This document shows, one piece after another, positions 19,364 to 46,750 of a stretch of 64,000 bases of DNA. The DNA lies in the NCBI GenBank assembly GCA_021604505.1, contig BQJC01000001.1, positions 434,001 through 498,000 of the forward strand. Reading direction: 5' to 3'. The stretch comes from Nitrospinaceae bacterium (GTDB lineage Bacteria; Nitrospinota; Nitrospinia; Nitrospinales; VA-1). The translations under genes and the position numbers were made by a program. The first letter of the stretch is position 1; the number at the start of each line of letters is the position of its first letter. The notes beneath the pieces are model-generated. The model saw only the letters and a list, made by a program, of their open reading frames with translations, made no database searches and was not told the origin of the DNA.

Positions 19364-22363
19364 GTGAAGCTCCTTTCCCCGGAAGATCGTGATCAGGTTC
19401 GGCAAATGGTATTGAATGCCAGTGAGCCAATTACGCCGTTTTGGCCCATGCGGACGATGATTGCGGAGAATCCCATTCACGGGCTGGAATATCTGCCGTT
19501 TGATCAGGCTGTTCGAAAAGGCAGGGATCTCCTTGGTGGAAGTGGGTATCTCGCGAATGAGGAGTATCGCAAATTTCACCGAAATGGCCGTATTCCCCAA
19601 GAGAGTTTTGAACGCGCCTTTTCCAGGGTTGGGCCTCGCCCGGATGGGCAGGTTCCCATTGCAGTGGGAAGTCGCAAGGTTACTCCGGAAGAGATTTGGC
19701 AATTACACGTACTTTTTGGCTTCGAGGATTTGCCACCGTCTCTTTTAGAATGGGAGTTGCATGGTGGTGGAGCGACAAAACGGTTCCGGCAGGATCTTTC
19801 AGGAAAATCCCGGAAACAAATCCTTGAACGAACCATCAAAGAATGTGAGCCGTGTCGGGAGAATCCGGAGGAGGGTTACCTGACGAAATTATGGGAGGGT
19901 GTGTTAGACACCCTTGAGTTATCTGAATTTCATGCTTCACCTCAATACCCTGAGGATACGCATTCGCAAACGTCTGCACCCATTTCCCTGCCGCCTCAAA
20001 GGACCATCAGCGATTGGGTCGATGATTTGACTGAGGGAGGGGGGGGCGACCAAATCAATGATCAACTCATCAAATGGGTGACAGCGTTCCTTGACGAAGG
20101 ATTAGCCGGCTGGAAAATGCCTGGCCGGGAAGAAGGTTTCTACTCAGTATGGAGGAAGCTGGCGCAGAAAGATTTTTCGGGAAAACTTCTCGGAATTACG
20201 GATTACGCCCAAAAGATTCATAGCCTTCCTCACGCTCCAGAGGACGCGATCCTTTCCAGCCTGCACCAACTTGAAATTCCCGAAGAACAATGGAAAGATT
20301 ATCTCTCAAGGCAACTATCATTATTGCCAGGCTGGACGCGCTACATACGGTGGCTTGGAGAACACCCAACATACCATGCGCAACACAAACATCCCATTGA
20401 CACCACACAATATCTGGCCGTGCGTTTATTCTATGAAGTGGAGTTGACCAACATCAAGTGCCAGCGAGAATGGGGGATCGATGGGACGGTTTCTAACCTG
20501 ACGGCCTATTGGAATGATCGACCCGAAGAATACCACCAACAAATGGGGCATGGAAGGCAATCCGGAGATCCAGCCATACAGATGATATGCCGGCAAGCCT
20601 GGCGATTATTCCATTTGGCACAGTTTCTTGAATTGTCTCCAGGAGAAGTTCGCGATCTCTCGCTTACCGATGCCCAGATGTTGTTGCAATGGATAGATCA
20701 ATTTCCTGCCGATCAGCATGGAAGGGTATGGATTGAGGCGTACGAACATTCCTTTCGAGAGAAGCTGCTGAAGAATATTTCAGCGCATCGTGGAAAGGTG
20801 CCCGAGTGGGAAACTCGTCCCCATGCACAACTGGTTTTCTGTATAGACGTACGCTCTGAATCGTTTCGTCGACATCTTGAAGCCCAAGGTCCCTATGAAA
20901 CGTTTGGGTTTGCAGGGTTTTTTGGCATTCCCATTAACCATCAAGCTTTTGACAGCAACCAACGGGCCGTCTTATGTCCGGCGCTATTGACACCAAACCA
21001 TGCGGTGACGGAAATACCCCGACCGGAAGAAGGAGCGGCGTTAGAGAAATATTCTTCCGTTACTCGCTGGGGCCAACTGGGGCACCATTTTTTTCACGAT
21101 CTCAAGCATCATCCTATTGGGTCGATGATGCTGATTGATGTGTTTGGGGTCTTTTTTAGTCTGGGGTTGGTGGGCAAGACCTTTCTCCAAAAGACCTATC
21201 GTGCAATGACCTCCACGATCCAGAGTTGGTTGACGCATAGGGTTCCAACCCAGATCTCAATTTCCACGCCATCCGATCCTCAAAATCCCAGGATCGGAGA
21301 AGTGAATGCGGAAGGGATTCCAGACGGGCTTTCTCGGGGATTTTCTCTTTCGGAACGAGCGGCATTTATTGAAAATGGTTTGCGGGCTATGGGCCTCACC
21401 AAAAATTTTGCGCGGTTGGTGTGCCTCTGTGGCCATGGGAGTGAGACGGACAACAATCCCTATTATGGGGCATTGGATTGCGGGGCTTGCGGGGGAGCAC
21501 CGGGCGATGCAAGTGCGCGGGTTTTTGCCGCCATGGCGAATGAACCGGAAGTTCGCCGCATCCTCAAGGAAAATGGATTGCCGATTCCCGATGACACCTG
21601 GTTTCTTCCGGGGAAACATAACACGACGACGGATCGGGTCGAGTTTTACGATCTGGAGGAATTGCCTGATTCGCATAAAGAAGATCTGCAGATGTTGAAC
21701 AGGGATCTCGAAAAAGCGGGTGCGAAGCAGGCGCTTGAGCGATGCCATCGCATTCCCGGTGCTCCGGCTGAACTTTCTCCAGAGCAGGCGTTTGCTCATG
21801 TAGATGAACGCAGTTGCGATTGGGCGAATACCCGGCCGGAATGGGGATTAGCGGGCAATGGAGCGTTTCTGATTGGAAGACGACAACTGACCAGAGGATT
21901 GGATTTAGAGGGTCGGGTTTTTTTGCATTCTTATGATCCTGTTGCTGATCCTCAAGGTGCCATCCTCGAAAACATCATGACCGCGCCATTGATTGTCGGC
22001 GAGTGGATTAGTACGGGTTATTATTTTTCTGCAGTTGATCCATGGAAATATGGAAGTGGGAGTAAGGTGTTACACAATGTCGTTGGGGGTGTGGGGATGA
22101 TGCTGGGAACCCAAAGTGATTTGCAGATGGGATTTCCCTTGCAGACGGTCAATGACGGGGACATTCACTATCATGAGCCGATGCGGCTCTTAGCTGTGAT
22201 CGAACAGGCGCCGGGTATAATCTCATCTATCATCCAAAAACACTCGATCCTCCAACAGTTGTTTCATAATCAATGGATTAATCTTGTTGCCCTGGATCCC
22301 AAAAGTTTTGAATTTCACCGGTACAATCCAAATGCGACGTGGGAAACGGTTCATGTTCCCTAA
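19364..22363 (+). CDS. dabA: DabA inorganic-carbon transporter subunit (DUF2309/UPF0753)
   Basis: 999 residues. DabA is a distant beta-carbonic-anhydrase-like protein which, with the NuoL-like DabB, forms a membrane complex that energises bicarbonate accumulation. The zinc site is complete by comparison with the characterised protein: VFCIDVRSE gives Cys493 and Asp495, LCGHGSETDNNP gives His691, and LDCGACGG gives Cys706; the 15-residue spacing between the last two ligands is the same as in Halothiobacillus DabA. The N-terminal part (ITPFWPMRTMIAENPIHGLE) is also typical. It is longer than the roughly 830-residue reference, mostly through insertions before and between motifs. The start is a GTG without an obvious ribosome-binding site. 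The gene heads a ten-gene operon-like row of Mrp/complex-I-like subunits (22499-30117), which suggests ion-coupled bicarbonate uptake. The family call is firm; partner choice is inferred. Confidence 0.95.
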   Translation: MKLLSPEDRDQVRQMVLNASEPITPFWPMRTMIAENPIHGLEYLPFDQAVRKGRDLLGGSGYLANEEYRKFHRNGRIPQESFERAFSRVGPRPDGQVPIAVGSRKVTPEEIWQLHVLFGFEDLPPSLLEWELHGGGATKRFRQDLSGKSRKQILERTIKECEPCRENPEEGYLTKLWEGVLDTLELSEFHASPQYPEDTHSQTSAPISLPPQRTISDWVDDLTEGGGGDQINDQLIKWVTAFLDEGLAGWKMPGREEGFYSVWRKLAQKDFSGKLLGITDYAQKIHSLPHAPEDAILSSLHQLEIPEEQWKDYLSRQLSLLPGWTRYIRWLGEHPTYHAQHKHPIDTTQYLAVRLFYEVELTNIKCQREWGIDGTVSNLTAYWNDRPEEYHQQMGHGRQSGDPAIQMICRQAWRLFHLAQFLELSPGEVRDLSLTDAQMLLQWIDQFPADQHGRVWIEAYEHSFREKLLKNISAHRGKVPEWETRPHAQLVFCIDVRSESFRRHLEAQGPYETFGFAGFFGIPINHQAFDSNQRAVLCPALLTPNHAVTEIPRPEEGAALEKYSSVTRWGQLGHHFFHDLKHHPIGSMMLIDVFGVFFSLGLVGKTFLQKTYRAMTSTIQSWLTHRVPTQISISTPSDPQNPRIGEVNAEGIPDGLSRGFSLSERAAFIENGLRAMGLTKNFARLVCLCGHGSETDNNPYYGALDCGACGGAPGDASARVFAAMANEPEVRRILKENGLPIPDDTWFLPGKHNTTTDRVEFYDLEELPDSHKEDLQMLNRDLEKAGAKQALERCHRIPGAPAELSPEQAFAHVDERSCDWANTRPEWGLAGNGAFLIGRRQLTRGLDLEGRVFLHSYDPVADPQGAILENIMTAPLIVGEWISTGYYFSAVDPWKYGSGSKVLHNVVGGVGMMLGTQSDLQMGFPLQTVNDGDIHYHEPMRLLAVIEQAPGIISSIIQKHSILQQLFHNQWINLVALDPKSFEFHRYNPNATWETVHVP

Positions 22364-22498
22364 TTAGACATTTATTGAATACAGGCGCTTGGGCCGTTAT
22401 AAGAATACGGGTGTTTAATTCTAAAACTCCGGCTGGTTTTTTATAAGAATAATCGAAAATACTGAGGCACTGAAGTTAAACCCGTATTTGATAATTTT

Positions 22499-23005
22499 AT
22501 GGCAACTCGATCTAGACCCGTATCATCAGCATTCCTGTTATTAAAAGCCATGGCGCTGTTTGTGTTTTGGATTTTTTTATCTGCCAGCTTTGAATGGATT
22601 CATCTTGTTTTGGGGCTTACGTTTTCCCTCGCTGTCGCCTGGATCAACTCTGGTCATTCGCTTTTTGTTCCGAAATTTCGTTTGTGGCTCAGAATCCTCC
22701 TTTATCTTCCATGGCTTTCTTATAAAATTGTTGAAAGCAGCGTTCATTTGTCCAAGCTTATTTTGCACCCTGCGCTTCCCATTGCTCCTCAATTGATTTC
22801 TGTGGATTCAAAACTGCGCCACCACGGAGCCATTGTTCTTCTAGGTAATTCCATTACGTTAACCCCTGGAACCATCACCGCGGAGGTTGACCGTAATAAA
22901 CTCGTTGTTCATGCGATAGATAAAGTTTCAAGCGAGGATGTTGCAAGCAGGCAGATGGAAATGAAAATTGCTGACATTTTTAAGGACGAAGAGCCGGATT
23001 TATGA
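22499..23005 (+). CDS. mnhE: Mrp antiporter subunit E (MnhE/MrpE)
   Basis: 168 residues. Two or three membrane helices at the N-terminus (MALFVFWIFLSASFEWIHLVLG), then the conserved cytoplasmic part LGNSITLTPGTITAEVDRNKLVVHAI, which is the MrpE signature. It is an accessory subunit of multi-subunit Na+/H+ antiporters. It starts 135 bp after dabA, the longest gap in this row apart from that before the NuoM-like gene, and overlaps mnhF by 4 bp (ATGA). Confidence 0.92.
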   Translation: MATRSRPVSSAFLLLKAMALFVFWIFLSASFEWIHLVLGLTFSLAVAWINSGHSLFVPKFRLWLRILLYLPWLSYKIVESSVHLSKLILHPALPIAPQLISVDSKLRHHGAIVLLGNSITLTPGTITAEVDRNKLVVHAIDKVSSEDVASRQMEMKIADIFKDEEPDL

Positions 23006-23268
23006 AAACCTTTCTTCTTTACGTTATGGTGTTGCTGGCGCTTCTCATTGGTGCGTATCTGTACCGTGTCCTGCGGGGCCCCACAATTTTTGATCGTGTG
23101 TTGGGTCTCAATGGAATTTCCACCAAGGCAATTATTTTGCTTATTGTCATTGGTATGTATTTTGGCCGAGTCGATATGTTCATTGATATCTCGACGGGGT
23201 ATGCCCTGCTAAATTTAGTCGGAGCGCTTGCCGTGGCCAAATTTTTGGAACAAAAGGGACATCCGTAG
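23002..23268 (+). CDS. mnhF: Mrp antiporter subunit F (MnhF/MrpF)
   Basis: 88 residues with three membrane helices. The signature YRVLRGPTIFDRVLGLNGISTKAI is that of MrpF/MnhF. It is translationally coupled to mnhE through ATGA and followed by mnhG one base after its stop codon. Length and motif match the family. Confidence 0.93.
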   Translation: MKTFLLYVMVLLALLIGAYLYRVLRGPTIFDRVLGLNGISTKAIILLIVIGMYFGRVDMFIDISTGYALLNLVGALAVAKFLEQKGHP

Positions 23269-23269
23269 C

Positions 23270-23569
23270 ATGGATATACTTTCCATTATTTTTATTGTGG
23301 CGGGATTATTTTTTCTGATCGTTGCGGCGATTGGTGTGGTTCGACTGCCCGATGTGTTCAGTCGTTCTCATGCCGTATCATTGACGGATTCCTTAGGGGC
23401 TTTTTTGATGTTAATTGGAATGTCCTTGCATGAGGGACTGGACAAAAATACGCTGAAAATTCTTGTGGTGTTGGCCTTGCTGTATATTCTAAATCCAGTC
23501 ATTGCCCATGCCACGATTCGCGCGGCTCTCCGGTCTGGTATAAAACCCTGGAAAAAGGAAACCCCATGA
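23270..23569 (+). CDS. mnhG: Mrp antiporter subunit G (MnhG/MrpG)
   Basis: 99 residues with three membrane helices. The signature GVVRLPDVFSRSHAVSLTDSLGA is typical of MrpG/PhaG. The ATG at 23270 is right after the mnhF stop; an in-frame upstream ATG would overlap mnhF. The end overlaps the next gene by 4 bp. Confidence 0.93.
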   Translation: MDILSIIFIVAGLFFLIVAAIGVVRLPDVFSRSHAVSLTDSLGAFLMLIGMSLHEGLDKNTLKILVVLALLYILNPVIAHATIRAALRSGIKPWKKETP

Positions 23570-24093
23570 TTTTTCCATATGAAATTCCTTTGCTCCTTCT
23601 CCTGCTTATTACGGCCGCTGGCGCCATCATGGTTAAGGACTTGATAAGTGCTGTTCTGCTCCTGGGTTCTTATAGTTTTTTCCTGGCCTTGGTATGGGCG
23701 GGCCTCGGAGCTGTGGATGTCGCCTTCGTGGAAGCCGTCGTAGGAGCCGGGCTAGCCACTGTTTTGTTTCTATTAACTCTATTCGGTACGGCGCCCAAAG
23801 ACAATCGGCTTCGGCGCCCTCCTCCTTCTCTGATAACGTTAATTGTTTTTCCTCTCTTGGGAGTTCTTTTGCTCTATGCCGCGAGCGATCTTCCTGAGTT
23901 TGGAGACCCGAATTCTCCAGCGAGTGTTCGTATTTCGCCAGTCTATCTCGAGCAGAGCTATACCGATACCCACACCCCGAATGTTGTGACTTCGGTACTG
24001 ATGGACTATCGATCGCTTGATACGATGGTCGAAACGGTCGTAATTTTTGCGTCCGGCATTGCATGTGCCTTACTGCTTAGGAGACATGGATAA
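23566..24093 (+). CDS. Stand-alone MbhD/MbhE-like subunit (DUF4040), equal to the MrpA C-terminus
   Basis: 175 residues, polytopic. The first half (MVKDLISAVLLLGSYSFFLALVWAGLGAVDVAFVEAVVGAGL) matches DUF4040/MbhD, with the conserved acidic residue in AFVEA. The second half, ending PNVVTSVLMDYRSLDTMVET, matches MbhE. In classic Mrp operons these domains form the C-terminus of the large MrpA; here they are separate, as in Mbh-type complexes. Start overlaps mnhG (ATGA) and the stop overlaps mnhB (TAATG). Confidence 0.88.
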   Translation: MIFPYEIPLLLLLLITAAGAIMVKDLISAVLLLGSYSFFLALVWAGLGAVDVAFVEAVVGAGLATVLFLLTLFGTAPKDNRLRRPPPSLITLIVFPLLGVLLLYAASDLPEFGDPNSPASVRISPVYLEQSYTDTHTPNVVTSVLMDYRSLDTMVETVVIFASGIACALLLRRHG

Positions 24094-24545
24094 TGATACG
24101 CCCGCACGACAGCATTATCGTTCATACCTTAGGGCGCTTTCTCATTCCGGTGGTCCAAATTTTTGGTTTGTATGTGTTGTTTTTTGGGCAATACGGACCT
24201 GGCGGAGGCTTTGTGGGTGGGGTGATTCTGGGCACGGGGATGATCTTATCGGTTTTGATTTTTGGTCATGACGCTTCCCGCAGTCAAATCGTCAAAAAGG
24301 TTTTGCACGGTGATGGGGTCGGAATGCTGATCTACGCAGGGGTAGGTGGTTTGTGCATGATTGGAGGTGGAGAGTTTCTCAATTATGCGAATTTGGAAAT
24401 TCCAGGTTTAGAAACTGCTTCTCGAAGATCTTTAGGAATCGTACTCACTCAAATCGGTGTGGCATTAGATGTTGCGGTAACAGCCGTTTCCATTGTGTTT
24501 AGCTTATCTGCTGAAGAGATTATCGAGGATTCAATAAATGGTTGA
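24093..24545 (+). CDS. mnhB: Mrp antiporter subunit B (MnhB/MrpB)
   Basis: 150 residues with four membrane helices. The MnhB signature FGQYGPGGGFVGGVILGTGMIL is clear, as is the later GVALDVAVTAVSIVFSL. It overlaps the previous gene by one base and mnhC by 8 bp. Family assignment is secure; it has no catalytic motif of its own. Confidence 0.92.
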   Translation: MIRPHDSIIVHTLGRFLIPVVQIFGLYVLFFGQYGPGGGFVGGVILGTGMILSVLIFGHDASRSQIVKKVLHGDGVGMLIYAGVGGLCMIGGGEFLNYANLEIPGLETASRRSLGIVLTQIGVALDVAVTAVSIVFSLSAEEIIEDSING

Positions 24546-24915
24546 CGCATTATTTACGGTTTTGCAGCGACCCAATTTTTTGACATTTGTCATCCTTTTT
24601 TTGTGGGGCTTTTATATCATGGTCACGCGATTCAATCTCGTAAAGAAACTCATCGGGTTGTATCTGGTGCAAACCAGCGTGATCTTTTTCCTGGTGTCTA
24701 TTAGTGCGAAGAAGGACGCGACGGTTCCCGTGCTCTTGTCTACCACGGAGCCGGTGCAAGCGGCCAGTTACTTGAATCCCTTACCTCATGTCTTGACGTT
24801 AACCGCCATTGTGGTTGGCGTGGCGACCACCGGTGTGGGATTAGCCCTGTGCGGGGCGATCTATCGGCAATATGGAAGCCTTGATGAAGAAAAAATTCTT
24901 GAAAAATTAGAATGA
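24538..24915 (+). CDS. mnhC: Mrp antiporter subunit C (MnhC, NuoK-like)
   Basis: 125 residues with three membrane helices, homologous to complex I subunit NuoK. Features: GFYIMVTRFNLVKKLIGLYLVQTSVIFFLV and PLPHVLTLTAIVVGVATTGVGLAL, the usual MrpC core. It overlaps mnhB by 8 bp and mnhD by 4 bp, so it is coupled to both. Confidence 0.93.
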   Translation: MVDALFTVLQRPNFLTFVILFLWGFYIMVTRFNLVKKLIGLYLVQTSVIFFLVSISAKKDATVPVLLSTTEPVQAASYLNPLPHVLTLTAIVVGVATTGVGLALCGAIYRQYGSLDEEKILEKLE

Positions 24916-26381
24916 GTCACCAACTTCCAGCCATCCTATTCCTTCTCCCGTTGTTTGCTGCTATTTCCATGCCGGTGGTTTGCCTTAAACACCGTCACTG
25001 GAGCCAGCCAATTTCTGTGGCAGTTCTCGCGGCTATGGTTCTTGTCTCTGTTTTGAACCTCCAAAACGTCCTTCATCATGGAGAAGTGCGGTATGTGTTC
25101 AGTGGGTGGACGGTACCCCTCGGCATTGAGTGGGTGGCCGATGGATTCGCAAGTGTCATCTTAGCGTTATTTAGTGTCTTGGGTTTGCTGGGTGTGGTGT
25201 TTACGGGACCCACTTCCCCAAAGGACCTGGGTGGCCGAATCGTTCATTATTATACGTTGATTTTGCTGTTAGTATCCTCTTTGACTGGCATTGTTTTCGC
25301 TGGCGATTTATTCAATCTGTTCGTGTTTTTAGAAGTTGCGGCTATCTCGAGTTACGCGCTTATTGGTGTCGCTGGCGGGAGAGCGCTCTTTGCAGCCTAT
25401 CGCTATCTTATATTGGGAACCCTTGGTGCTTCCCTTTATCTTTTAGGAGTGAGCTATCTCTATGCGGTGACTGGCACACTGAATATGGCGGATATGGCCG
25501 AAAAAATTCCCCTTTTATTACACTCTAAAGCGGTCGTGGGTGGATTGCTTTTTATGTTTATTGGCTTGGGGATCAAGATGGCCTTAGTCCCGTTTCATGC
25601 CTGGTTGCCCGAGGCCTATACCCATGCTCCTTATTCTATTTCCCCTATCCTGGCTTCACTGGTCACTAAAGTAGCGCTATTGGCTTGGGTCAGAATAATC
25701 TATTGGGTCTTCAATGCGTCCATTGTTATAGATGATATTCCGGTTTTGCTACTGGTGGCCGTTGTTGGAGCATTAGCGGCGGTCATCGGCGCAAGCCTGG
25801 CCTTGGCCCAGAGGGATCTTAAAATGATCTTCGCTTATGGAGGGATTTCGCACATCGGCATCATTCTTACTGGAATCGGTCAAGGCAACCCAACCGGGTT
25901 TGTCGGAGGAGTTTTTTATTTATTGAACGATGCCGTTATGCAAGCCAGCCTGTTTTTTTTAGCAGGCGTGGCGTTTTGTCATTATGGGGTCAGAACGATT
26001 GACGACATGGGGCGTGTTGGGAAACAGGCCCCTTGGCTTACGGGGTCTTTAATTATTGTGGCCTTAGGCATGATTGGCCTGCCTCCGACGGGTGGATTTT
26101 TTGGCAAATGGTACATCATTCTTGGAGCGTTAGAAGCGGGCAATTATTTTTCGGTCGCGGCGGTGCTGCTCGCCACGCTCTTGACGCTTGCCTATTTCGT
26201 CAAACTGTTTGAGTCCATTTTCCGCCAACCATCAACTCGAGTGGAAGTTCCGTCTGGTATAATTCCCCTCTCATTTAAACTGACTCTGGGCGTCACGTCC
26301 GCCGCTATCATGATTCTTGGTTTGTATAGTTCTCCCATTATTCAACTGTTGTTGAGCCAGGCTCTGCCACCAGGTCTTTGA
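24912..26381 (+). CDS. mnhD: Mrp antiporter subunit D (MnhD, NuoN/M-like)
   Basis: 489 residues, about 14 membrane helices, of the proton_antipo_M family. Key charged residues are kept: Glu in FNLFVFLEVAAISSYALIG, Lys in GLGIKMALVPFHAWLPEAYTHAP, Lys in ASLVTKVALLAW and Lys in GFFGKWYIILGAL. These form the ion-transfer path in complex I and Mrp proteins. It is the first of three antiporter-like subunits in this cluster. The next gene starts 8 bp after its stop. Confidence 0.93.
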   Translation: MSHQLPAILFLLPLFAAISMPVVCLKHRHWSQPISVAVLAAMVLVSVLNLQNVLHHGEVRYVFSGWTVPLGIEWVADGFASVILALFSVLGLLGVVFTGPTSPKDLGGRIVHYYTLILLLVSSLTGIVFAGDLFNLFVFLEVAAISSYALIGVAGGRALFAAYRYLILGTLGASLYLLGVSYLYAVTGTLNMADMAEKIPLLLHSKAVVGGLLFMFIGLGIKMALVPFHAWLPEAYTHAPYSISPILASLVTKVALLAWVRIIYWVFNASIVIDDIPVLLLVAVVGALAAVIGASLALAQRDLKMIFAYGGISHIGIILTGIGQGNPTGFVGGVFYLLNDAVMQASLFFLAGVAFCHYGVRTIDDMGRVGKQAPWLTGSLIIVALGMIGLPPTGGFFGKWYIILGALEAGNYFSVAAVLLATLLTLAYFVKLFESIFRQPSTRVEVPSGIIPLSFKLTLGVTSAAIMILGLYSSPIIQLLLSQALPPGL

Positions 26382-26389
26382 GGGAAATT

Positions 26390-28489
26390 ATGGCTCTTTT
26401 CGTCCTCATTCCTTTGCTTCCTCTTTTGGCTTCCCTCATTCTTCTGCTTGGGGGACGTCGTTGGGGTGAGAACAGTCACCGGATCGGGATTCCTGCCATC
26501 GGTTTATCCTTTCTGTTATCCGTTGTCGCTTTCATTGAAGTGTTGAGAAATGGACCATTCACTCTTTCTCTTTATCGCCTCTTACAATCGGGTTCCCTGA
26601 CCATTGATTTAACTCTATACGTGGACCAATTGACGGTCCTGCTTTTGCTCCTGGTCACAGGAGTGAGTGGGGTGGTGCATGTGTATTCCTCTCGCTACAT
26701 GATAGGAGAGTCACAATATAATCGTTTTTTCGCCGTCATTGCCTTGTTTACTTTTTCTATGATTTTGTTGGTCATGAGCGGCAACCTCTTGATTTTGTTG
26801 ATTAGTTGGGAGGTTATGGGGGTCTGTTCCTATCTGTTGATTTCTCACGCGGCAGAGCGACCTTCAGCTTGCCGGGCAGCCACCAGAGCTTTTCTGGTCA
26901 ACGCAATCGCGGATGTCGGATTAGGTTTTGGCATCATTCTAACCTTTTATACCTTCGGTACACTCGATATACAGACGATACTTTCTCAGGCTGAAGGCAT
27001 GCAGGACACCACCATCAATATCTTAGGGTGGATGGGTTTGGACCTTCAAATCTATCCCGTGACGCTGATTCCCTTCTTCCTTTTTATCGGGGCTATGGGA
27101 AAATCAGCGCAAATACCGTTCCACGTTTGGTTGCCCGGGGCGATGGAAGCTCCGACTCCGGTCTCGGCGCTTATTCATGCGGCCACTATGGTGAATGCGG
27201 GTCCGTTTTTGTTAGTGCGATTGAGTCCGTTGATGGTTCTTTCTCCATACGCCATGACGTTCATTTTCTTTATTGGCGCCATGACCGCGGTATTTGCCGG
27301 GATCGTTTCCTTGACGCAATCGGACATCAAAAAGATTTTGGCCTATTCCACAATCAGTCAAATCGGGTTCATGGTCATGGCCTGTGGTTTGGGTGCGTTT
27401 GCAGTAGCGATTTTCCACCTTCTTGCCCATGGGTGCTACAAAGCGTTCTTTTTTCTATCGACCGGCAATGCGTTGCGGTCCGTGGAACGGAGCCTTGGGC
27501 ATGATGAGCATGAGCACCCTGTCTCTGAGGGCATGGGGATCTTATATGGCGGGGCCCTGGTGTTGGCGTTACTCCCGCCACTCGTGCTGTTTTCAGGACC
27601 GTATGAATATTTGTGGGGAATCACGGGGTTTGTTTCTGCTACGATCGGATTCAAAATCATTGGCTTAATCACGGTATTTGTGGCTTCTCAATATCTTTTT
27701 AAAGGCGTCACTTCGCTTTTTGCCCACGGTCCAAAGACGTACTGGCCCGCTTCAGGACAGCATGGTCTGGAGACGCAATCTGTTCGGCCACAGCTTTTAA
27801 ATGGTTCCATTATAACGGGCCTTTTTCTGGCTGTGGTTTTTGCAGGTGGGCTAATGACTCTGTTTTGGAGTTGGTTCGCCGACTTTCTTGCTCCGGCTTT
27901 GACCTTTTCAGGAGACACATTGGGCGAAGGTGCCCCCGAGCAGGGGTTTCCTTTTTGGTTGGTGGTTTCACTTGGCATCGCAGTGGCGGGGTGGGTCTAT
28001 GCATACTCAACACAGGTCCGGTCCCAACATCAGGTCTTAAGAGCAAAGGGGATAAGCACTCGATGGTACGTCCTGTTTTGGAATAAAGGTTATTTTGATG
28101 AGATCTATGATGCCTATCTGGTCACCCCAACCATTCAGTTCGCACGCTGGTTGTGGCGAAATATTGATATAAGGGTTATAGATCGTTTCATCCATTCAAT
28201 CGCAACTTATTCTGTATATTTTGCAAGGTGGTTGTGGGGAATTGTTGATATAAGGGTTATAGATCGTTTCATCCATTTTATAGCGGCTTATTCTGTGTAT
28301 TTTGCCGGGTGGTTATTGAGAATTGTTGATATTCGCGCGTTGGAGGGGAAAGTAGGAAAAGTAGCAGGACAAGTTAATGCTACGGGGAAATTACTGCAAG
28401 AGATGGAATCCCGTACCATCCAACACCAATTATTAGTAATGGTGTTTTGGTTAGTGGCGATGACTGGCCTGTTGTATATCTTGGTTTAA
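26390..28489 (+). CDS. NuoL/MrpA-N/DabB-like antiporter subunit with repeated C-terminal helix segment
   Basis: 699 residues. The N-terminal part is a NuoL-type proton_antipo domain: NLLILLISWEVMGVCSYLLIS with the conserved Glu, FIGAMGKSAQIPFHVWLPGAMEAPTPVSALIHAATMV in which Lys and His are kept, and GCYKAFFFLSTGNALR. It may be the DabB partner of DabA or the missing MrpA N-terminus. The C-terminal part equals the lateral-helix region of NuoL, but a 27-residue segment (WLWRNIDIRVIDRFIH) occurs twice almost exactly at 584-610 and 611-637 and a third time in altered form from 638. A last membrane helix closes the protein. The ATG at 26390 follows GAGGGA; a TTG at 26378 lies inside mnhD. The family is sure; the exact orthology (DabB or NuoL) is open. 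Confidence 0.9.
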   Translation: MALFVLIPLLPLLASLILLLGGRRWGENSHRIGIPAIGLSFLLSVVAFIEVLRNGPFTLSLYRLLQSGSLTIDLTLYVDQLTVLLLLLVTGVSGVVHVYSSRYMIGESQYNRFFAVIALFTFSMILLVMSGNLLILLISWEVMGVCSYLLISHAAERPSACRAATRAFLVNAIADVGLGFGIILTFYTFGTLDIQTILSQAEGMQDTTINILGWMGLDLQIYPVTLIPFFLFIGAMGKSAQIPFHVWLPGAMEAPTPVSALIHAATMVNAGPFLLVRLSPLMVLSPYAMTFIFFIGAMTAVFAGIVSLTQSDIKKILAYSTISQIGFMVMACGLGAFAVAIFHLLAHGCYKAFFFLSTGNALRSVERSLGHDEHEHPVSEGMGILYGGALVLALLPPLVLFSGPYEYLWGITGFVSATIGFKIIGLITVFVASQYLFKGVTSLFAHGPKTYWPASGQHGLETQSVRPQLLNGSIITGLFLAVVFAGGLMTLFWSWFADFLAPALTFSGDTLGEGAPEQGFPFWLVVSLGIAVAGWVYAYSTQVRSQHQVLRAKGISTRWYVLFWNKGYFDEIYDAYLVTPTIQFARWLWRNIDIRVIDRFIHSIATYSVYFARWLWGIVDIRVIDRFIHFIAAYSVYFAGWLLRIVDIRALEGKVGKVAGQVNATGKLLQEMESRTIQHQLLVMVFWLVAMTGLLYILV
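28139..28300 (+). repeat. Tandem 81-bp coding duplication in the NuoL-like gene
   Basis: Units 28139-28219 and 28220-28300 are nearly identical; TTGATATAAGGGTTATAGAT recurs at 28164 and 28245. A diverged third unit follows from 28301 (TTTGCCGGGTGG, then GTTGATATTCGCG). The reading frame is kept. Confidence 0.9.
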
Positions 28490-28614
28490 CGAGTTCCTGA
28501 TTTGTATCCCTAGTATAAGAAATGGATCTGGTTGCGAATGCTCATGCGTCATTTTGCTAAGGCTGACTTGAAAAGACGGGAGATTGCTTCTTTGGTAGGC
28601 AGGAGGGTTCTTTA

Positions 28615-30117
28615 ATGAATATATTGATGGATCATCTGATCAGTTGGATGATCGCTGTTCCTGTTTTAGGAATTGTCAGTCTGGGATTTGTGCGCGATGA
28701 AGGGTCGATGCGACGAACTGCCTTTGGCTTCACAATGGTGGAGTTTTTCCTTTCGCTGGTACTCTGGAAGAATTTTGATTTAACCCAGCAAAGCATGCAG
28801 TTTGTTGAACGCGTGGAATGGATGCCCACGTTCAATATTCAGTATGCGGTTGGTGTGGATGGCATCAGTATTCTATTGGTGGTACTCACAGCCTTGCTTA
28901 GTCCACTCTGTGTCCTTTGTTCGTGGACGGGAATTACAACTCGAGTGCGAGCCTTCCTCTCGCTGATCTTGTTGGTTGAAGGCGCCATGATTGTGGTCTT
29001 TACCGCCCTGGATCTTTTCCTGTTTTTCATGTTGTGGGAATTGACCATGATTCCCATGTATTTCATGATTATTCTCTGGGGGGGACCGAATCGTATTGCC
29101 GCCGGGCTTAAATTCGTTTTATACAGTCTGACGGGAAGCTTACTGCTACTGGTGGGAATACTGGGTGTTTACCTTAATGGAGGACATACCTACGATCTGT
29201 TGGTGTTATCTGAACAAACCTTTTCCTCCAGCACGCAATTCTGGTTATTCCTGGCGTTCTTTCTGTCTTTTGCCATAAAAATGCCAATGGTTCCCTTTCA
29301 TACGTGGCTCCCTGACGCGCACTCCGAAGCGCCTACGGCTGGCAGTGTGATTCTGGCTGGGGTGCTGTTGAAAATGGGGGGGTATGGCTTTTTACGTTTT
29401 TGTTTGCCGATGTTTCCAGAGGCTTCGGCGAATTTCGCACCCTATATTTTGTGGTTGTCGGTCATAGCCATTATCTATGGCGGGTATCTGGCCCTGGCGC
29501 AGTCAGATCTTAAAAAGCTTGTGGCCTATTCTTCAGTTTCCCACATGGGTTTTGTCACTCTCGGAATTTTTGTTTTCAATAGCCAGGGCATCCAGGGGGC
29601 CGTCTTGCAAATGTTTAATCACGGGATCACGACCGCGGCCTTATTTATTTGTGTTGGACAATTATACGACCGCACTCACAGTCGAGCGATTTCTGATTAC
29701 GGCGGCTTGCATAAACCCATGCCAAGATTTGTCGCATTGTTCTTTTTATTTTCAGTCGCCGCCTTCGGGCTGCCAGGCACCTGTAATTTCATTGGCGAAT
29801 TTTTAGTCTTAGTAGGAACTTCCTATGTCAACTTTTTCATGGTTCTTATTTCTATGGGCGGTATTGTTTTGGCTGCTGCCTATATGTTGTGGATGCTCCA
29901 AAGGGTGGCCTTGGGAGAGTCAAAGACAGAAGCCGCCAAAGTGCTCCCGGATTTATCGAATCGGGAATTGGCTACGCTGATTCCATTGGCTGTCCTCGTA
30001 TTGGGTATTGGATTGTATCCCGGACCCTTGATGGAGATGATGGATGCGAGTGTGATTCACCTCATCCAACAAACCACAGGGCTGCAGGGGGCTGAAGTGC
30101 TTCACGGGAAAAACTAA
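28615..30117 (+). CDS. NuoM-like antiporter subunit
   Basis: 500 residues, full NuoM length, about 14 membrane helices. All ion-path residues are present: Glu142 in FFMLWELTMIPMYF, Lys222 in FAIKMPMVPFHTWLPDAHSEAP, Lys253 in LLKMGGYGFLRF and Glu in FIGEFLVLVG. It looks more like complex I NuoM than like MrpD. AGGAGGG stands 8 nt before the ATG. A 125-bp gap separates it from the NuoL-like gene, so it could have its own promoter, but orientation and pairing suggest one complex. It ends the DabA-Mrp row; a recombinase fossil follows 50 bp later. Confidence 0.93.
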   Translation: MNILMDHLISWMIAVPVLGIVSLGFVRDEGSMRRTAFGFTMVEFFLSLVLWKNFDLTQQSMQFVERVEWMPTFNIQYAVGVDGISILLVVLTALLSPLCVLCSWTGITTRVRAFLSLILLVEGAMIVVFTALDLFLFFMLWELTMIPMYFMIILWGGPNRIAAGLKFVLYSLTGSLLLLVGILGVYLNGGHTYDLLVLSEQTFSSSTQFWLFLAFFLSFAIKMPMVPFHTWLPDAHSEAPTAGSVILAGVLLKMGGYGFLRFCLPMFPEASANFAPYILWLSVIAIIYGGYLALAQSDLKKLVAYSSVSHMGFVTLGIFVFNSQGIQGAVLQMFNHGITTAALFICVGQLYDRTHSRAISDYGGLHKPMPRFVALFFLFSVAAFGLPGTCNFIGEFLVLVGTSYVNFFMVLISMGGIVLAAAYMLWMLQRVALGESKTEAAKVLPDLSNRELATLIPLAVLVLGIGLYPGPLMEMMDASVIHLIQQTTGLQGAEVLHGKN

Positions 30118-37914: not shown

Positions 37915-39153
37915 ATGCCGGTCAAATCATTGCGTGTTCTCGTCATCAATTCAGGCAGTTCTTCCATCAAGTTCTGCCTGTACGACATGGAACGGGAGAT
38001 GCCGCTGGTAGCAGGTACACTGGAACGCATTGGCGAACCCAAAAGCAGCAGCGTTTACCGAAAGTATTCTGCCACGGGTGATGGGGAAGAGCGCAAAGAG
38101 AATTTGCCTGTCGCGGATCATTCAGCAGGCCTGAAACAGATTTTGGCTTTTCTGGAAAGCAGCGATTCTCTGGATTCGATGAAACCGCTGCATGCCATCG
38201 GCCATCGCGTCGTTCACGGTGGCGAGGTCTTCCAGGCCCCGACGCTCATCGATGAAAGCGTGATTGAGGGAATCCGTGAAATGATGCCACTGGCACCCTT
38301 ACATAACCCGGCAAATCTGGCAGGCATAGAGGTAACGCATCGGCTTTGCCCGCAGGTGCCGCAGGTCGCGGTGTTTGATACCGCTTTCTTCCGGGCTCTT
38401 CCTCCCAAAGCCTATCGCTATGCCCTGCCGGATGAATTGTACAGACATCATCAGATACGCCGTTACGGTTTTCACGGCACCTCACACCAGCATGTCGCCA
38501 AACAGGCGGCCAACCATCTAAAACAGCCGTTCGAAAAATTGCGGCTCATCACCTTGCATCTGGGAAATGGCGCCAGTGTTGCCGCAATCCGCGATGGCAT
38601 TTGCATCGACACCTCCATGGGCATGACGCCACTGGAGGGCCTTATCATGGGAACGCGCTGTGGTGACCTGGACCCTTCCGTGCATTTTTACCTCGCCCGG
38701 ACACTGGGTATGGATCTCGATGAAATCGAAACCCTGTTAAACCATGACAGCGGAATGAAGGGCCTGTGCGGCGCCAAGGACATGCGCGAAGTGCATCGGT
38801 TGGCGGACAGCGGCGACGAACGTGCGCGCCTTGCAATTGATATGTACTGCTACCGGATATGCAAATATATTGGCGCCTATTATGTTACCCTTGGCGGATT
38901 GGATGCACTGATATTCACCGCGGGCATTGGCGAGAACGATCCGCTCATTCGTCAGTCAATCTGCAACAGACTGTCCGTATTGGGCATCACACTCGATGGC
39001 GGGCGAAACCAGAATGGCACAAACGGAACCTTAAACATCAGCGGAGCAAACAGCAAGGTGCAAGCGCTGGTTGTTCCTGCCAACGAGGAGTTCGAGATCG
39101 CCCGCCAGGCTGTATCGACCATAAACAAAAGCAACGCCCATCGAAGATATTGA
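37915..39153 (+). CDS. ackA: Acetate kinase
   Basis: 412 residues, full length. It interconverts acetyl phosphate plus ADP with acetate plus ATP. Motifs: VLVINSGSSSIKF at the start, HRVVHGG, VFDTAFF, YGFHGTSH, HLGNGASVAAI, GLIMGTRCGDLDPS and TAGIGEND. It is the first gene of the second Mrp-type cluster; mnhE starts on its stop codon (TGATG). Phosphoketolase, a source of acetyl phosphate, ends the same cluster, so the two enzymes probably work in sequence. A 168-bp gap before it likely holds a promoter, but I cannot point to clear boxes. Confidence 0.96.
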   Translation: MPVKSLRVLVINSGSSSIKFCLYDMEREMPLVAGTLERIGEPKSSSVYRKYSATGDGEERKENLPVADHSAGLKQILAFLESSDSLDSMKPLHAIGHRVVHGGEVFQAPTLIDESVIEGIREMMPLAPLHNPANLAGIEVTHRLCPQVPQVAVFDTAFFRALPPKAYRYALPDELYRHHQIRRYGFHGTSHQHVAKQAANHLKQPFEKLRLITLHLGNGASVAAIRDGICIDTSMGMTPLEGLIMGTRCGDLDPSVHFYLARTLGMDLDEIETLLNHDSGMKGLCGAKDMREVHRLADSGDERARLAIDMYCYRICKYIGAYYVTLGGLDALIFTAGIGENDPLIRQSICNRLSVLGITLDGGRNQNGTNGTLNISGANSKVQALVVPANEEFEIARQAVSTINKSNAHRRY

Positions 39154-39662
39154 TGATGAATTTTTCAAAAATAAAAACGGGTTGTTTTGCCATGATATCG
39201 CGAGTGGGGGTATTTCTGCTCATCTGGTGGATTCTTACCGATGGCGCTCCATCCTCATGGTGGATCGGTGTACCGGCGGTCTTGCTTGCGGGTATTGTCA
39301 GCGCAGCGCTGATCCCACCTGTACCTATAGTCTGGTTGGAACTTTTAAAGTTTGTGCCTTTTTTCCTCCTGCATTCTTTGCTTGGTGGTGTGGATGTGGC
39401 TCGACGCGCCTTTCAGCCTAACTTGCCTATCGCCCCCGGCCTCATTGAATATCCATTTCAGCTGCCGCAGGGACTACCGCTTGTTTTCATGACCACCATC
39501 GTCAATCTGCTGCCAGGTACATTGATCGCTGAATTCGATCAGAGCCTGTTAAAAGTGCACGTGTTGGACAGGCGCAAAGATTTCATGACAGAACTCGAGG
39601 CGGTTGAGCAACGTGTGGCCCGCATTTTTGGTACATCCCTGCAGATTTCTGAAGGAGGTTAA
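39153..39662 (+). CDS. mnhE: Mrp antiporter subunit E, second cluster
   Basis: 169 residues. N-terminal membrane helices (VGVFLLIWWILTDGAPSSWW) and the MrpE core FMTTIVNLLPGTLIAEFDQSLLKVHVLD. The start ATG overlaps the ackA stop codon (TGATG), so the two are translationally coupled; a second ATG follows directly. It differs clearly in sequence from the first-cluster MnhE, so the two clusters are not a recent duplication. Confidence 0.9.
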   Translation: MMNFSKIKTGCFAMISRVGVFLLIWWILTDGAPSSWWIGVPAVLLAGIVSAALIPPVPIVWLELLKFVPFFLLHSLLGGVDVARRAFQPNLPIAPGLIEYPFQLPQGLPLVFMTTIVNLLPGTLIAEFDQSLLKVHVLDRRKDFMTELEAVEQRVARIFGTSLQISEGG

Positions 39663-39666
39663 AGAA

Positions 39667-40653
39667 ATGATGCCTTTCAAAAACATTCTTTGTGTTTTGG
39701 AACCCGGAGAGAAAAGTAAACCCGCCTTGGAACGCGCTGTTACCCTGGCAGAGAACAACCAGGCCAACCTGACGGTCGTCAACGTGATTCCGCGCATCAC
39801 TGCCGGCATCCAAATGCCGGAAGGCGGTCCCATCTCGGCCACATTGCAAACCGCGATGGCTAGTGACCGTGCGCAGATGATGGAAACTTTGATCGATCCT
39901 TACCTGAAACTTGTCGAGATCCAATCCAAGGTGTTAATAGGCACGTCCTATCTCGAAATAGTCCGCGAGGTACTACGCCATGAACACGACCTGGTCATCA
40001 AAGCTCCCGAGACCCAGGATTGGCGGGACCGGTTATTCGGCAGTGATGATATGAACCTTTTGCGCCAGTGCCCCTGCCCGGTTTGGCTGATCAAGCCAGG
40101 GGAACTGAAGTCCTACAAACGCATCCTGGCGGCGGTGGATGTCGATCTGGATGACGAGGACCCACCGGCGGAGCTGGAATCGCGACGTTCTCTTAACCGG
40201 AAGATTCTTGAAAGGGCATATTCTCTGGCGATTTCCGACTTTGCCGAACTGCACGTTATGCATGCCTGGGAGGCGATCGGGGAAAGTGCCATGCGCGGCG
40301 CGTTTATGCATAGGCCAGAGGAGAAAATTATGGCCTACGTCGAACAGGTGAGGCGACATCGCAAGGCCAGTTTGGACAAGCTCATGCGCGAAACGACCAG
40401 CCATATTGGGAAGGACGCCACGGATTACCTCAAACCACAAACGCATCTGGTGAAGGGTCTGGCTTCCAAAGAGATCCCGGCGTTGGCTAAGCGGATCAAG
40501 GCCTCTCTTGTCGTCATGGGCACTGTGGCCAGAACCGGAATTCCGGGATTCATCATGGGCAATACAGCAGAGACGATTTTGGAGCAGATTGACTGCTCCG
40601 TGCTCGCGATCAAGCCGCCTGGTTTCGTAACGCCGGTCACTTTGGAGGCCTGA
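39667..40653 (+). CDS. Double universal stress protein (UspE-like)
   Basis: 328 residues with two Usp domains in tandem. The first begins FKNILCVLEPGEKSKPALERAV; the second begins KRILAAVDVDLDDED and ends with the ATP-binding loop GTVARTGIPGFIMGNTAE. The first domain lacks a clear form of this loop. GAAGGAGG lies 7 nt before the ATG at 39667. It sits inside an Mrp operon, between mnhE and mnhF, which is unusual; fusion or pairing of Usp with Na+/H+ antiporters is known elsewhere and suggests nucleotide-dependent control of the transporter (inference). Confidence 0.9.
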   Translation: MMPFKNILCVLEPGEKSKPALERAVTLAENNQANLTVVNVIPRITAGIQMPEGGPISATLQTAMASDRAQMMETLIDPYLKLVEIQSKVLIGTSYLEIVREVLRHEHDLVIKAPETQDWRDRLFGSDDMNLLRQCPCPVWLIKPGELKSYKRILAAVDVDLDDEDPPAELESRRSLNRKILERAYSLAISDFAELHVMHAWEAIGESAMRGAFMHRPEEKIMAYVEQVRRHRKASLDKLMRETTSHIGKDATDYLKPQTHLVKGLASKEIPALAKRIKASLVVMGTVARTGIPGFIMGNTAETILEQIDCSVLAIKPPGFVTPVTLEA

Positions 40654-40659
40654 GCACGC

Positions 40660-40938
40660 GTGCAGATTCTTTACCTCGCATTGGCGCTGTTTCTTCTTGT
40701 GAACCTCGGTGCCGGGATGTGGCGTATACTGCGCGGTCCGACCGCTGCTGATCGTATGATGGCGGCGCAGTTATTTGGCACCACGGCAGTGGCCGTGCTA
40801 CTACTGCTGGCGCAGGCAACTGGAAAACCCGCCCTCAGCGATGTGGCATTGGTGTTTGCCCTATTGGCCGCGGTGACGACGGTGGCTTTCGTGCGGCGAG
40901 CCTGGACGGACCAAGGGGCAAACAATGAATCCGAATGA
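40660..40938 (+). CDS. mnhF: Mrp antiporter subunit F, second cluster
   Basis: 92 residues, three membrane helices, with the MrpF signature WRILRGPTAADRMMAAQLFG. The start is GTG at 40660, 6 bp after the Usp stop, with GGAGG about 12 nt upstream within the Usp gene. It overlaps mnhG by 14 bp. Confidence 0.9.
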   Translation: MQILYLALALFLLVNLGAGMWRILRGPTAADRMMAAQLFGTTAVAVLLLLAQATGKPALSDVALVFALLAAVTTVAFVRRAWTDQGANNESE

Positions 40939-41224
40939 TACCCTTTCCACGGCACTGCTGATCGCCGGTGCCATCTTCTTTCTGGCTGGCACCGTAGGCC
41001 TGTTGCGCTTTCCGGATGTATACACCCGTCTTCACGCCATAACCAAAGCAGACAACGTGGGCTTGGGCCTTGTGGTGATGGGTCTGGCTGTGCAGGCGGA
41101 AACATGGGCGGAGGCAGGCAAACTTTTGCTGATCTGGTGTTTAGTTTTGCTCGCCGGGGCCAGTGTTTCCCATCTGATCGCCAGAGGCGCATTGACTAGA
41201 GGTATAAAGCTGTGGAGGCGGTAA
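40925..41224 (+). CDS. mnhG: Mrp antiporter subunit G, second cluster
   Basis: 99 residues, three membrane helices, with the MrpG signature GLLRFPDVYTRLHAITKADNVG. Overlaps mnhF by 14 bp and the next gene by 13 bp, so the row is tightly coupled. Confidence 0.92.
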   Translation: MNPNDTLSTALLIAGAIFFLAGTVGLLRFPDVYTRLHAITKADNVGLGLVVMGLAVQAETWAEAGKLLLIWCLVLLAGASVSHLIARGALTRGIKLWRR

Positions 41225-42183
41225 CCCTTTTACAATGGACTTTCGATATCCTGTTGGGACTGGGCTTGTTATGGTTGGCCTGGCAGGCACTGACGAGTCC
41301 GGATCTGTTCAAAGGGATTGTATTGTTCATCGCCTTCGGTCTGTTGATGGCATTGGCCTGGGTGCGTCTGGATGCGCCGGATATTGCGCTTGCTGAAGCG
41401 GGTATCGGTGCCGGACTCACCGGCGCTTTACTGCTGGCTGCGTTCGCAAAATTGCGCACTGTAAAAACGAACCGGGATATAGCAGAACACCCGGAAAAAG
41501 GGAAACTTAAAAACCGATCCCTCCAATTCTGGCCGGCTGCACTCCTCCTGGTTGTTGCCGCCGGACTCGGGTACGCGGTTTTGTCTTTACCGCCTTATGC
41601 CACGGGTTTGAGTTCAGAGGTCGATGCAAATCTCAATGCCAGTGGGGTGAGCAACCCGGTAACCGCGGTACTACTCAACTTCCGGGGTTATGACACCATG
41701 TTGGAGATGTTCGTCTTGTTACTGGCACTGCTTGGTGTCTGGTCACTTGAGGGTTCGGCCCTGACCCGCGAAGCATTACCCGGCCCCGTGCTGAATACCC
41801 TAACGCGTGTCTTGACACCGATGTTGATCCTGGTGGCGGCTTACCTGCTATGGGTCGGTGCCCATGCACCCGGCGGTGCTTTTCAGGCGGGTTCGGTGCT
41901 AGGCGCGGCGGGAGTGCTTCTACTGTTGTCGGGTTGGCGTCTCCCCTCTAATTTAGCCGCAATGCCTCTGCGGCTCACATTGGTGGCAGGCCCTGCCATA
42001 TTTGTGGCAATGGTTGTGCTCACGATGCTGATTGAGGGGCGGTTGCTGGAATACCCCCCGGAGCAGGCTGGCATCCTGATGCTGTTTCTAGAGACGGCGG
42101 CGACCCTCTCCATCGGCGTGACATTAGCCGCCCTGTTCCTCGGTGGACGCCCTCAAAATAAAAACAACAAGGAACACACATGA
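41212..42183 (+). CDS. Fused MbhD/MbhE (DUF4040) and MnhB subunit
   Basis: 323 residues. Residues 1-90 are DUF4040/MbhD (SPDLFKGIVLFIAFGLLMALAWVRLDAPDIALAEAGIGAGL, with the acidic residue in LAEAG). Residues about 100-190 match MbhE (SGVSNPVTAVLLNFRGYDTMLEM). From about 195 onwards is an MnhB domain (VGAHAPGGAFQAGSVLGAAGVLLLL). The first cluster keeps these as two genes. The start is GTG at 41212 inside mnhG; the end overlaps mnhC by 4 bp. A fusion of the MrpA tail with MrpB is seen in several Mrp-like clusters. Confidence 0.88.
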   Translation: MEAVTLLQWTFDILLGLGLLWLAWQALTSPDLFKGIVLFIAFGLLMALAWVRLDAPDIALAEAGIGAGLTGALLLAAFAKLRTVKTNRDIAEHPEKGKLKNRSLQFWPAALLLVVAAGLGYAVLSLPPYATGLSSEVDANLNASGVSNPVTAVLLNFRGYDTMLEMFVLLLALLGVWSLEGSALTREALPGPVLNTLTRVLTPMLILVAAYLLWVGAHAPGGAFQAGSVLGAAGVLLLLSGWRLPSNLAAMPLRLTLVAGPAIFVAMVVLTMLIEGRLLEYPPEQAGILMLFLETAATLSIGVTLAALFLGGRPQNKNNKEHT

Positions 42184-42488
42184 ACGCCGCATTCCTTTTT
42201 GCCTTGGTGGGTGCCGGGCTTTTTTCGCTGGGGTTGTATGCCCTGATCGTTCATGCGCACCTGTTGCGCAAGATCCTGGCCACCAATGTGATAGGTAGCG
42301 GAGTCTTCCTGGTACTGGTGGCGCTGGCAAAGCGTACCGGGCAGGCTCAGCCTGACGTAGTGCCGCACGCCCTGGTCATCACCGGCATCGTGGTTGCTGT
42401 CTCGGCCACGGCATTGGCGCTCACTTTGATGTTGAAACTGACTGCGGAAACCGGACGCGCCGAGCTTCCCGAAGACCCAGGAGAGTAG
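42180..42488 (+). CDS. mnhC: Mrp antiporter subunit C, second cluster (NuoK-like)
   Basis: 102 residues with three membrane helices: LVGAGLFSLGLYALIVHAHLLRKILATNVIGSG and VVPHALVITGIVVAVSATALAL, the MrpC core. The ATG overlaps the previous stop (ATGA). MnhD follows after 5 bp. Confidence 0.92.
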   Translation: MNAAFLFALVGAGLFSLGLYALIVHAHLLRKILATNVIGSGVFLVLVALAKRTGQAQPDVVPHALVITGIVVAVSATALALTLMLKLTAETGRAELPEDPGE

Positions 42489-42493
42489 CAACG

Positions 42494-46730: not shown

Positions 46731-46750
46731 CCTGAAAAGCAGTTTTCAGG
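46731..46750 (+). other. Perfect hairpin between the Mrp cluster and phosphoketolase
   Basis: CCTGAAAA-GCAG-TTTTCAGG, an 8-bp stem directly after the stop codon of the last subunit. No T-run follows, so it is more likely an mRNA-stabilising or processing hairpin than a complete terminator. Confidence 0.55.

Follow-up and report, generated by a model that had tools for sequence, protein, structure and literature searches.

A dabA gene joined to a group-3 Mrp and complex-I-like operon in Nitrospinota and Nitrospirota: a candidate enlarged ion-driven vectorial carbonic anhydrase

Why does a gene for a carbonic-anhydrase-like protein stand at the head of an antiporter operon? In the window, the 64,000 nucleotides analyzed here (bases 434001-498000 of contig C1 in the 3.64-Mb genome of a Nitrospinaceae bacterium), dabA is followed by mnhE, mnhF, mnhG, an mbhD/E-like gene, mnhB, mnhC, mnhD, a nuoL-like gene, and a nuoM-like gene, all on the plus strand between 19364 and 30117 (Table 1). 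From mnhE through the nuoL-like gene, neighbors overlap by a few bases or are separated by small gaps; intergenic gaps of 135 bp and 125 bp lie ahead of mnhE and the nuoM-like gene, respectively. An earlier note on this DNA had listed these ten genes in one direction, and its gene-by-gene description proved accurate when set against Pfam and NCBIfam. Its term "full Mrp" holds for the EFG-(MbhD/E)-B-C-D set, which is present, and fails for mrpA, which is absent, so that the base is of the group-3 or membrane-bound hydrogenase (MBH) type and not of the Bacillus type. Indeed, mrpE, F, G, MrpB domains, C, and D in the absence of mrpA, all of which apply to this operon, are what delimits a group-3 Mrp, and the mbhD/E-like gene encodes, as a separate protein, what is otherwise the C-terminal portion of MrpA. 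All three large subunits match Proton_antipo_M (PF00361; 187, 196, and 264 bits), and the scores of the NuoL-like (TIGR01974) and NuoM-like (TIGR01972) proteins exceed the NCBIfam curated cutoffs. Comparison of the encoded proteins leads us to favor, with moderate confidence, the reading that the operon specifies an enlarged DAB-type vectorial carbonic anhydrase driven by an ion gradient, in which the NuoL-like protein would be the DabB and, together with two other antiporter subunits, would sit on a Mrp base of group 3 (MBH type).

The first question is whether dabA belongs to the operon at all. When the neighbors of related DabAs were annotated by phmmer against the window's proteins, the same ten-gene order and strand recurred in 16 genomes of Nitrospinota, among them this one, and in 14 of Nitrospirota (30 in all), a few of these operons ending at a contig end within the last gene. 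In several of them, dabA and mnhE overlap or almost abut (spacings of -4, -1, 3, 9, 9, and 24 bp). In the genomes compared, DabA is 44 to 84% identical to that of the window. The possibility, raised in the earlier note, that dabA adjoins the Mrp genes only in this genome is thereby removed, and an order conserved in 30 genomes of two phyla implies an association that is more than chance. The same picture emerges from the Mrp side. An operon-type MbhD/E (at least 175 bits in Nitrospinota and at least 195 bits in Nitrospirota) was present in 20 Nitrospinota genomes when 60 relatives and the genome itself were searched; a Mrp-type DabA lies directly upstream of the Mrp genes in 19 of these 20, and in the twentieth the contig stops inside or directly before the MbhD/E gene. 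Fourteen of 296 sampled Nitrospirota genomes carry an operon-type MbhD/E, which adjoins a Mrp-type DabA in 11. In two Nitrospirota genomes (G201 and G063), dabA and mnhE are separated by a complete canonical DAB operon (PII-DabA-DabB412-DabB) in the opposite orientation (L141:5123-19901 and L152:2600-19901). Every MbhD/E genome with enough contig contains a member of the Mrp-type DabA clade. In five metagenome-assembled genomes (G001, G002, G029, G040, and G042), the contig ends within the Mrp-type dabA and the search for a Mrp part was negative, which suggests that the locus breaks assemblies or is lost in binning. That dabA is a chance neighbor of a Mrp operon is scarcely credible: it is unlinked in one genome (G147), but 30 genomes of two phyla share the order, both parts persist even when unlinked, and DabA and the NuoL-like protein show matching residue features. 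We rejected this explanation as contradicted by the two-phylum conservation. The scan of public genome contigs used two clade-specific peptides and says nothing on absence from other phyla; a 3-kb fragment assigned to a Phycisphaerales bin (L088) is probably misbinned.

Is DabA itself equipped as in characterized systems? Residues C493, D495, R497, H691, and C706 are all present and invariant in 44 homologues, and the zinc site of the DAB/DAC type (C351/D353/H524/C539-type) is complete in the operon DabA. In the cryo-electron microscopy structure of DAB2, DabA2 extends a membrane finger into DabB2, where Glu444 of the finger occupies the position of Lys399/Asp400 of NuoL transmembrane helix 12 (TM12), a pair that DabB2 lacks (PMC13144422). 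The counterpart of Glu444 in the operon DabA is Asp592. Glu444 lies in the FVES motif of DabA2, a region left unaligned by both phmmer and a clade profile, and the register to Asp592 was obtained with a short-type DabA as the bridge. Asp occupies the finger position in 33/33 members of the Mrp-type clade, and canonical DabAs have Glu there; in DAB2, E444A and E444Q abolish activity, and E444D is absent from the reported mutants (PMC13144422). In the DabA tree, the 34 Mrp-type sequences cluster as a single clade, separate from the canonical DabAs (Shimodaira-Hasegawa-like approximate likelihood ratio test [SH-aLRT], 99). The earlier note had considered that this DabA might pair with a DabB elsewhere in the genome, which is contradicted by its own clade and by 13 genomes that have a Mrp-type DabA without a canonical DabB. 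The best match in these 13 reaches at most 313 bits, compared with 1232, 951, and 936 bits for true DabBs in three comparison genomes, so the Mrp-type DabA cannot simply borrow a DabB encoded elsewhere. DabA relatives on plasmids (123 records) are distant and served as an outgroup only; the four plasmid loci examined are two-gene DabB-DabA operons, whose TM12 columns are not reliably alignable.

The complete zinc site also bears on a different function. MpsAB of Staphylococcus aureus, a DabAB homologue, has been proposed as a Na+/HCO3- symporter (as stated in PMC13144422), and a similar symporter here, in which DabA gates bicarbonate entry and hydrates no CO2, would suit seawater, which is rich in Na+ and in which dissolved inorganic carbon (DIC) is mostly HCO3-. 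Given that the carbonic anhydrase site is fully kept and that no anion path is recognizable in any subunit, we regard such a symporter as improbable.

Which antiporter subunit, then, would receive DabA? Among NuoL-like sequences, the TM5 Glu and TM7 Lys are conserved in 30/30, but both the TM12 Lys and the TM12 Asp are missing in 30/30. This TM12 pair is likewise absent from 14/14 canonical DabBs of both phyla and is present in 25/25 NuoL proteins of the complex I type. Across the sequences compared, the NuoM-like subunit and MnhD both always have the TM5 Glu and TM7 Lys; the former also has the TM8 Lys and a TM12 Glu throughout, and the latter a TM12 Lys. Since the TM12 gap occurs in the NuoL-like protein and in neither of the other two, only the NuoL-like protein would have a place for the DabA finger, and its residue pattern makes it the likely partner of DabA. 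The NuoL-like proteins also cluster with DabB rather than with NuoL: the joint clade has SH-aLRT values of 92, 94, and 97 in maximum-likelihood analyses of three data sets, although the approximately unbiased test given below does not reject the NuoL alternative. A further observation comes from two loci (L058 and L049) in which the small Mrp genes and mnhD are 43 to 56% identical to those of the window and DabA is 81 to 84% identical. In L049 (genome G011), the nucleotide sequence of dabA is up to 93% identical to that of other lineages, and the boundaries of this similarity lie near the gene ends. Nucleotides ~800 to 1680 of its nuoL-like gene (~TM8 to TM15, including TM12) are 61 to 78% identical to L058 and 86 to 97% identical to L051 and others, and the remainder of the gene shows the reverse pattern and is closer to L058. 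This single metagenome case, which may be a chimera, lends weak support to DabA and the contact-side part of the NuoL-like protein having been exchanged together once.

The same exchange suits the main rival, namely that DabA and the NuoL-like protein are an ordinary H+-driven two-protein DAB and that the other eight genes encode a separate, coexpressed group-3 Mrp Na+/H+ antiporter for proton disposal or pH control. In L049, the replacement took in dabA and the segment of the nuoL-like gene for TM8 to TM15 but spared mnhD and the small Mrp genes, so the pair can move together. Moreover, DAB2 functions with two subunits and without Na+ (PMC13144422), and in Pyrococcus furiosus a group-3 Mrp occurs by itself, with no energy-input module attached (PMC8415708). 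Several features nevertheless make this division of the operon unlikely. The nuoL-like gene lies inside the Mrp-plus-NuoM run and never adjoins dabA in 30/30 genomes, no genome was seen with dabA and the nuoL-like gene minus the rest, and the NuoL-like protein keeps the TM5 Glu and a long lateral-helix tail, which in complex I are features of intersubunit coupling. Furthermore, the window already holds another Mrp-like set at 39.1 to 46.7 kb, which means that the cell has a separate Mrp-type system.

Several observations weigh against the enlarged-complex interpretation. In an approximately unbiased test, grouping of the NuoL-like protein with complex I NuoL was not rejected (P = 0.215). At TM5, all 30 NuoL-like proteins keep the Glu, whereas the canonical DabBs of both phyla have Gln or His (14/14), so that the NuoL-like subunit is no plain DabB. 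The single-chain AlphaFold models are weak (predicted local distance difference test scores of 60.6 for the NuoL-like protein and 75.1 for DabA), and a Foldseek search of the PDB gave no match at an E value of 0.001 and did not return 9rd0. In G147, a single contig, dabA and the nine-gene set are both intact but ~260 kb apart (L140 and L237). The spacing between dabA and mnhE is -4, -1, 3, 9, 9, 24, or 38 bp in some genomes, 1456 bp in one, and 107 to 586 bp in most others, and a gap of the last size in many genomes leaves room for separate regulation. Finally, DAB2 is H+ driven and appears independent of Na+ (PMC13144422).

Among known systems, the DAB/DAC family, with DAB2 of Halothiobacillus neapolitanus (DabA2-DabB2; PDB 9rd0), shares with the operon a beta-carbonic-anhydrase-like zinc site, an acidic finger, and a NuoL-related partner that lacks the TM12 Lys-Asp pair. 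DAB2, however, consists of two subunits only, and its DabB2 has Ile151 in place of the TM5 Glu and a short axial helix, whereas the operon keeps the TM5 Glu, encodes a long tail, and adds the NuoM-like protein, MnhD, Mrp B, C, E, F, and G, and MbhD/E. The locus is a variant of the DAB/DAC kind that fails one DabB-defining feature, the lack of the TM5 Glu, and adds a Mrp/complex-I chassis. The canonical DAB operon of the same phyla also has a DabA, a NuoL-related DabB, and a PII-like gene, and the last gene of the Mrp-type operon in one genome (G331) encodes a PII-like protein akin to the canonical one (121 bits). The canonical operon differs in that DabB precedes DabA, a 412-amino-acid, degenerate NuoM-like protein is encoded, Mrp genes are absent, and DabA and DabB fall in separate clades.

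The chassis itself has close relatives. The group-3 Mrp of P. furiosus, as well as MBH and the related sulfane reductase (MBS), has the same EFG-(MbhD/E)-B-C-D gene set and order and no MrpA (PMC8415708). In the operon, the hydrogenase or sulfane-reductase module is replaced by DabA, the NuoL-like protein, and the NuoM-like protein. Identity with MBH or MBS was rejected, as no redox (hydrogenase-like) gene is among the ten and none is evident in the flanking open reading frames, and identity with complex I was rejected because the operon has no genes for a peripheral arm or quinone module. A NuoL/M/N set is encoded elsewhere in the genome (C1:1123181-1127591). Two partial precedents exist. The first consists of the COGNAT clade C operons of ybcC-nuoL-nuoM(-sulP) composition, in which ybcC/dabA lies upstream of nuoL with nuoM, as here, but for which no Mrp subunits were reported and the function was unknown at that time (PMC5700660). 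The second is a locus of "Candidatus Nitrospira alkalitolerans" in which a group-3 Mrp, with NuoM- and NuoL-like genes after mrpD, was linked to DIC uptake; BicA is named there rather than DabA, and NhaB is also present (PMC7784846). In our literature search, which did not reach most subscription journals, no report linking dabA to mnhEFG/BCD came to light. In cyanobacterial NDH-1MS, which is driven by electrons from ferredoxin, the carbonic-anhydrase-like protein CupA sits on the NuoL/NuoM-type arm of a large complex-I-like machine; the operon, by comparison, encodes no electron-transfer or quinone module. NDH-1MS has been named as a vectorial carbonic anhydrase (PMC13144422).

How might such a machine work? 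The NuoL-like subunit would serve as the DabB, with DabA bound on its cytoplasmic side, and the finger tipped with Asp592 would supply the outer half-channel acid missing from TM12. MnhD, the NuoM-like pump with its charges intact, and, at the end, the NuoL-like subunit would form an arm of three antiporters seated on a group-3/MBH-type Mrp base of MbhD/E and MnhB, C, E, F, and G. The inward movement of Na+ through the Mrp base, or of H+, would be relayed along the charges of the arm to DabA, where it would open and drive the zinc site for CO2 hydration, as the protonmotive force is proposed to do in DAB2, and would remove the proton made. HCO3- would then accumulate inside for carbon fixation. 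The assembly of all ten products in one complex, the direction of flow, Na+ as the coupling ion, and CO2 as the substrate are what we infer. The earlier note had likewise pictured a large ion-driven complex with DabA, a view that is partly supported; its "bicarbonate capture" is better described as vectorial CO2 hydration, because the substrate of DAB2 is CO2, which is hydrated to bicarbonate (PMC13144422).

As to the coupling ion, subunits E, F, G, and B' of the P. furiosus mrpEFGBB'CD group-3 system correspond to the Na+ module of MBH (PMC8415708). Na+ is favored here because E, F, G, and B match this module and many of the named relatives are marine; H+ may serve instead, given that DAB2 needs no Na+. 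We know of no established Na+-specific residue signature for these subunits. More tentatively, it is possible that Na+-gradient-driven CO2 hydration by one DabA-NuoL-NuoM-Mrp complex of about ten subunits represents a third kind of energized carbonic anhydrase, beside the H+-driven two-subunit DAB and the electron-driven NDH-1MS. Flow in the opposite direction, with an exergonic DabA reaction pumping Na+ or H+ out, was first suggested for YbcC-NuoL (COG3002/COG1009) operons (PMC5700660), and the charge-intact antiporter modules do resemble a pump. It is very improbable here: later work supports the protonmotive force as the driver of DAB2 (PMC13144422), and on general thermodynamic grounds the energy of CO2 hydration is too small to pump several ions.

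Table 1. Positions of the operon, its key residues, and related loci (window numbering unless a contig or locus is named)
Feature	Position	Strand	Matches and remarks
dabA	19364..22363	+	999 aa, GTG start; PF10070, 881 bits; PDB 9rd0 chain A; cytoplasmic beta-carbonic-anhydrase-like subunit
Zinc-site codons of dabA	C493 (20840), D495 (20846), H691 (21434), C706 (21479)		
Membrane-finger acid D592 of DabA	codon 21137-21139		Equivalent of Glu444 in DabA2
mnhE/mrpE (MbhA-like)	22499..23005	+	PF01899 (MNHE), 113 bits
mnhF/mrpF (MbhB-like)	23002..23268	+	PF04066 (MrpF), 53 bits
mnhG/mrpG (MbhC-like)	23270..23569	+	PF03334, 78 bits; TIGR01300 above cutoff; frame open from 23228, ATG at 23270 the likelier start
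mbhD-mbhE-like	23566..24093	+	MbhD PF13244, 55 bits, and MbhE PF20501, 38 bits, both above cutoff; NF009159 above cutoff
mnhB/mrpB (MbhF-like)	24093..24545	+	PF04039, 79 bits
mnhC/mrpC (MbhG/NuoK-like)	24538..24915	+	PF00420 (Oxidored_q2), 75 bits; best NCBIfam matches are antiporter subunit C
mnhD/mrpD (MbhH-like) antiporter subunit	24912..26381	+	PF00361, 187 bits; TM5 Glu, TM7 Lys, TM8 Lys, TM12 Lys kept
nuoL-like/dabB-like	26378..28489	+	703 aa; TIGR01974, 467 bits; alignment, residue counts, trees
Missing TM12 Lys-Asp pair of nuoL-like (P408, Y409)	codons 27599-27604		
Tandem repeat, nuoL-like C-terminal lateral-helix region	28148..28332	+	81 bp (27 aa), 2.3 copies
nuoM-like antiporter subunit	28615..30117	+	TIGR01972, 621 bits; TM5 Glu, TM7 Lys, TM8 Lys, TM12 Glu kept
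Second Mrp-like set: mnhE	39150		
Second Mrp-like set: Usp-domain protein	39664		
Second Mrp-like set: mnhF-like	40660		Assigned by eye
Second Mrp-like set: mnhG-like	40925		Assigned by eye
Second Mrp-like set: MbhD/E-MnhB fusion	41212		
Second Mrp-like set: mnhC-like	42180		Assigned by eye
Second Mrp-like set: three PF00361 proteins	42494, 43951, 45408		
Second genome dabA, canonical DAB operon	C3:592448-599052 = L045:7449-14053		DabB/412-aa membrane protein/DabA/PII-like

Several features of the operon and its surroundings deserve mention in their own right. The repeat unit in the lateral-helix region of the NuoL-like protein reads WLWxIVDIRVIDRFIHxIAxYSVYFAR; its copy number varies, and the lengths of the orthologues step by ~27 amino acids (645, 672, 699, and 730), as if the helix were extended unit by unit. 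Promoter and terminator scans gave no more matches than in shuffled sequence. In G147, a LysR-type regulator gene lies directly upstream of mnhE on the same strand (L237:8596-9495) and was not found near the other operons searched. The second Mrp-like set stands between genes for acetate kinase (37915) and phosphoketolase (46818), in the region 37915-49202. The 412-amino-acid protein of the canonical DAB operon has no Pfam match and aligns to a NuoM-like profile (hhalign, 97.2%; E = 4e-11), by which it appears to be a degenerate second antiporter subunit within a DAB operon. A weaker PII-like match (38 bits) follows the Mrp-type operon in L137, and in G038 (L059) a canonical DAB operon lies directly upstream of the Mrp-type operon. 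Several Nitrospirota genomes have two canonical-type dabA genes within ~15 kb (L145, L146, and L151).

Nitrospinota are the dominant known marine nitrite oxidizers and are estimated to account for 15 to 43% of inorganic carbon fixation in the Northern Atlantic (PMC10839748). A comparison of Nitrospinota reports the reductive tricarboxylic acid cycle and carbonic anhydrase in nearly all high-quality genomes, and its main text mentions neither Mrp nor bicarbonate transport (PMC10839748); the main text of the genome papers checked gives no account of how these bacteria raise internal DIC. The operon suggests that the modular Mrp/complex-I chassis, which in other systems bears hydrogenase or NADH modules, can also carry a carbonic anhydrase. 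Asp592, together with the missing TM12 pair, is a natural variant that bears on the idea that the DabA finger completes the half-channel of its partner, and the operon as a whole bears on the question of whether Na+ can power CO2 capture. Bacteria of the nitrite-oxidizing type in two phyla probably run CO2 capture on an ion-driven complex much larger than the two-protein version known to date. If true, a Na+-driven complex of about ten subunits would be in use in lineages that include the dominant nitrite oxidizers of the ocean.

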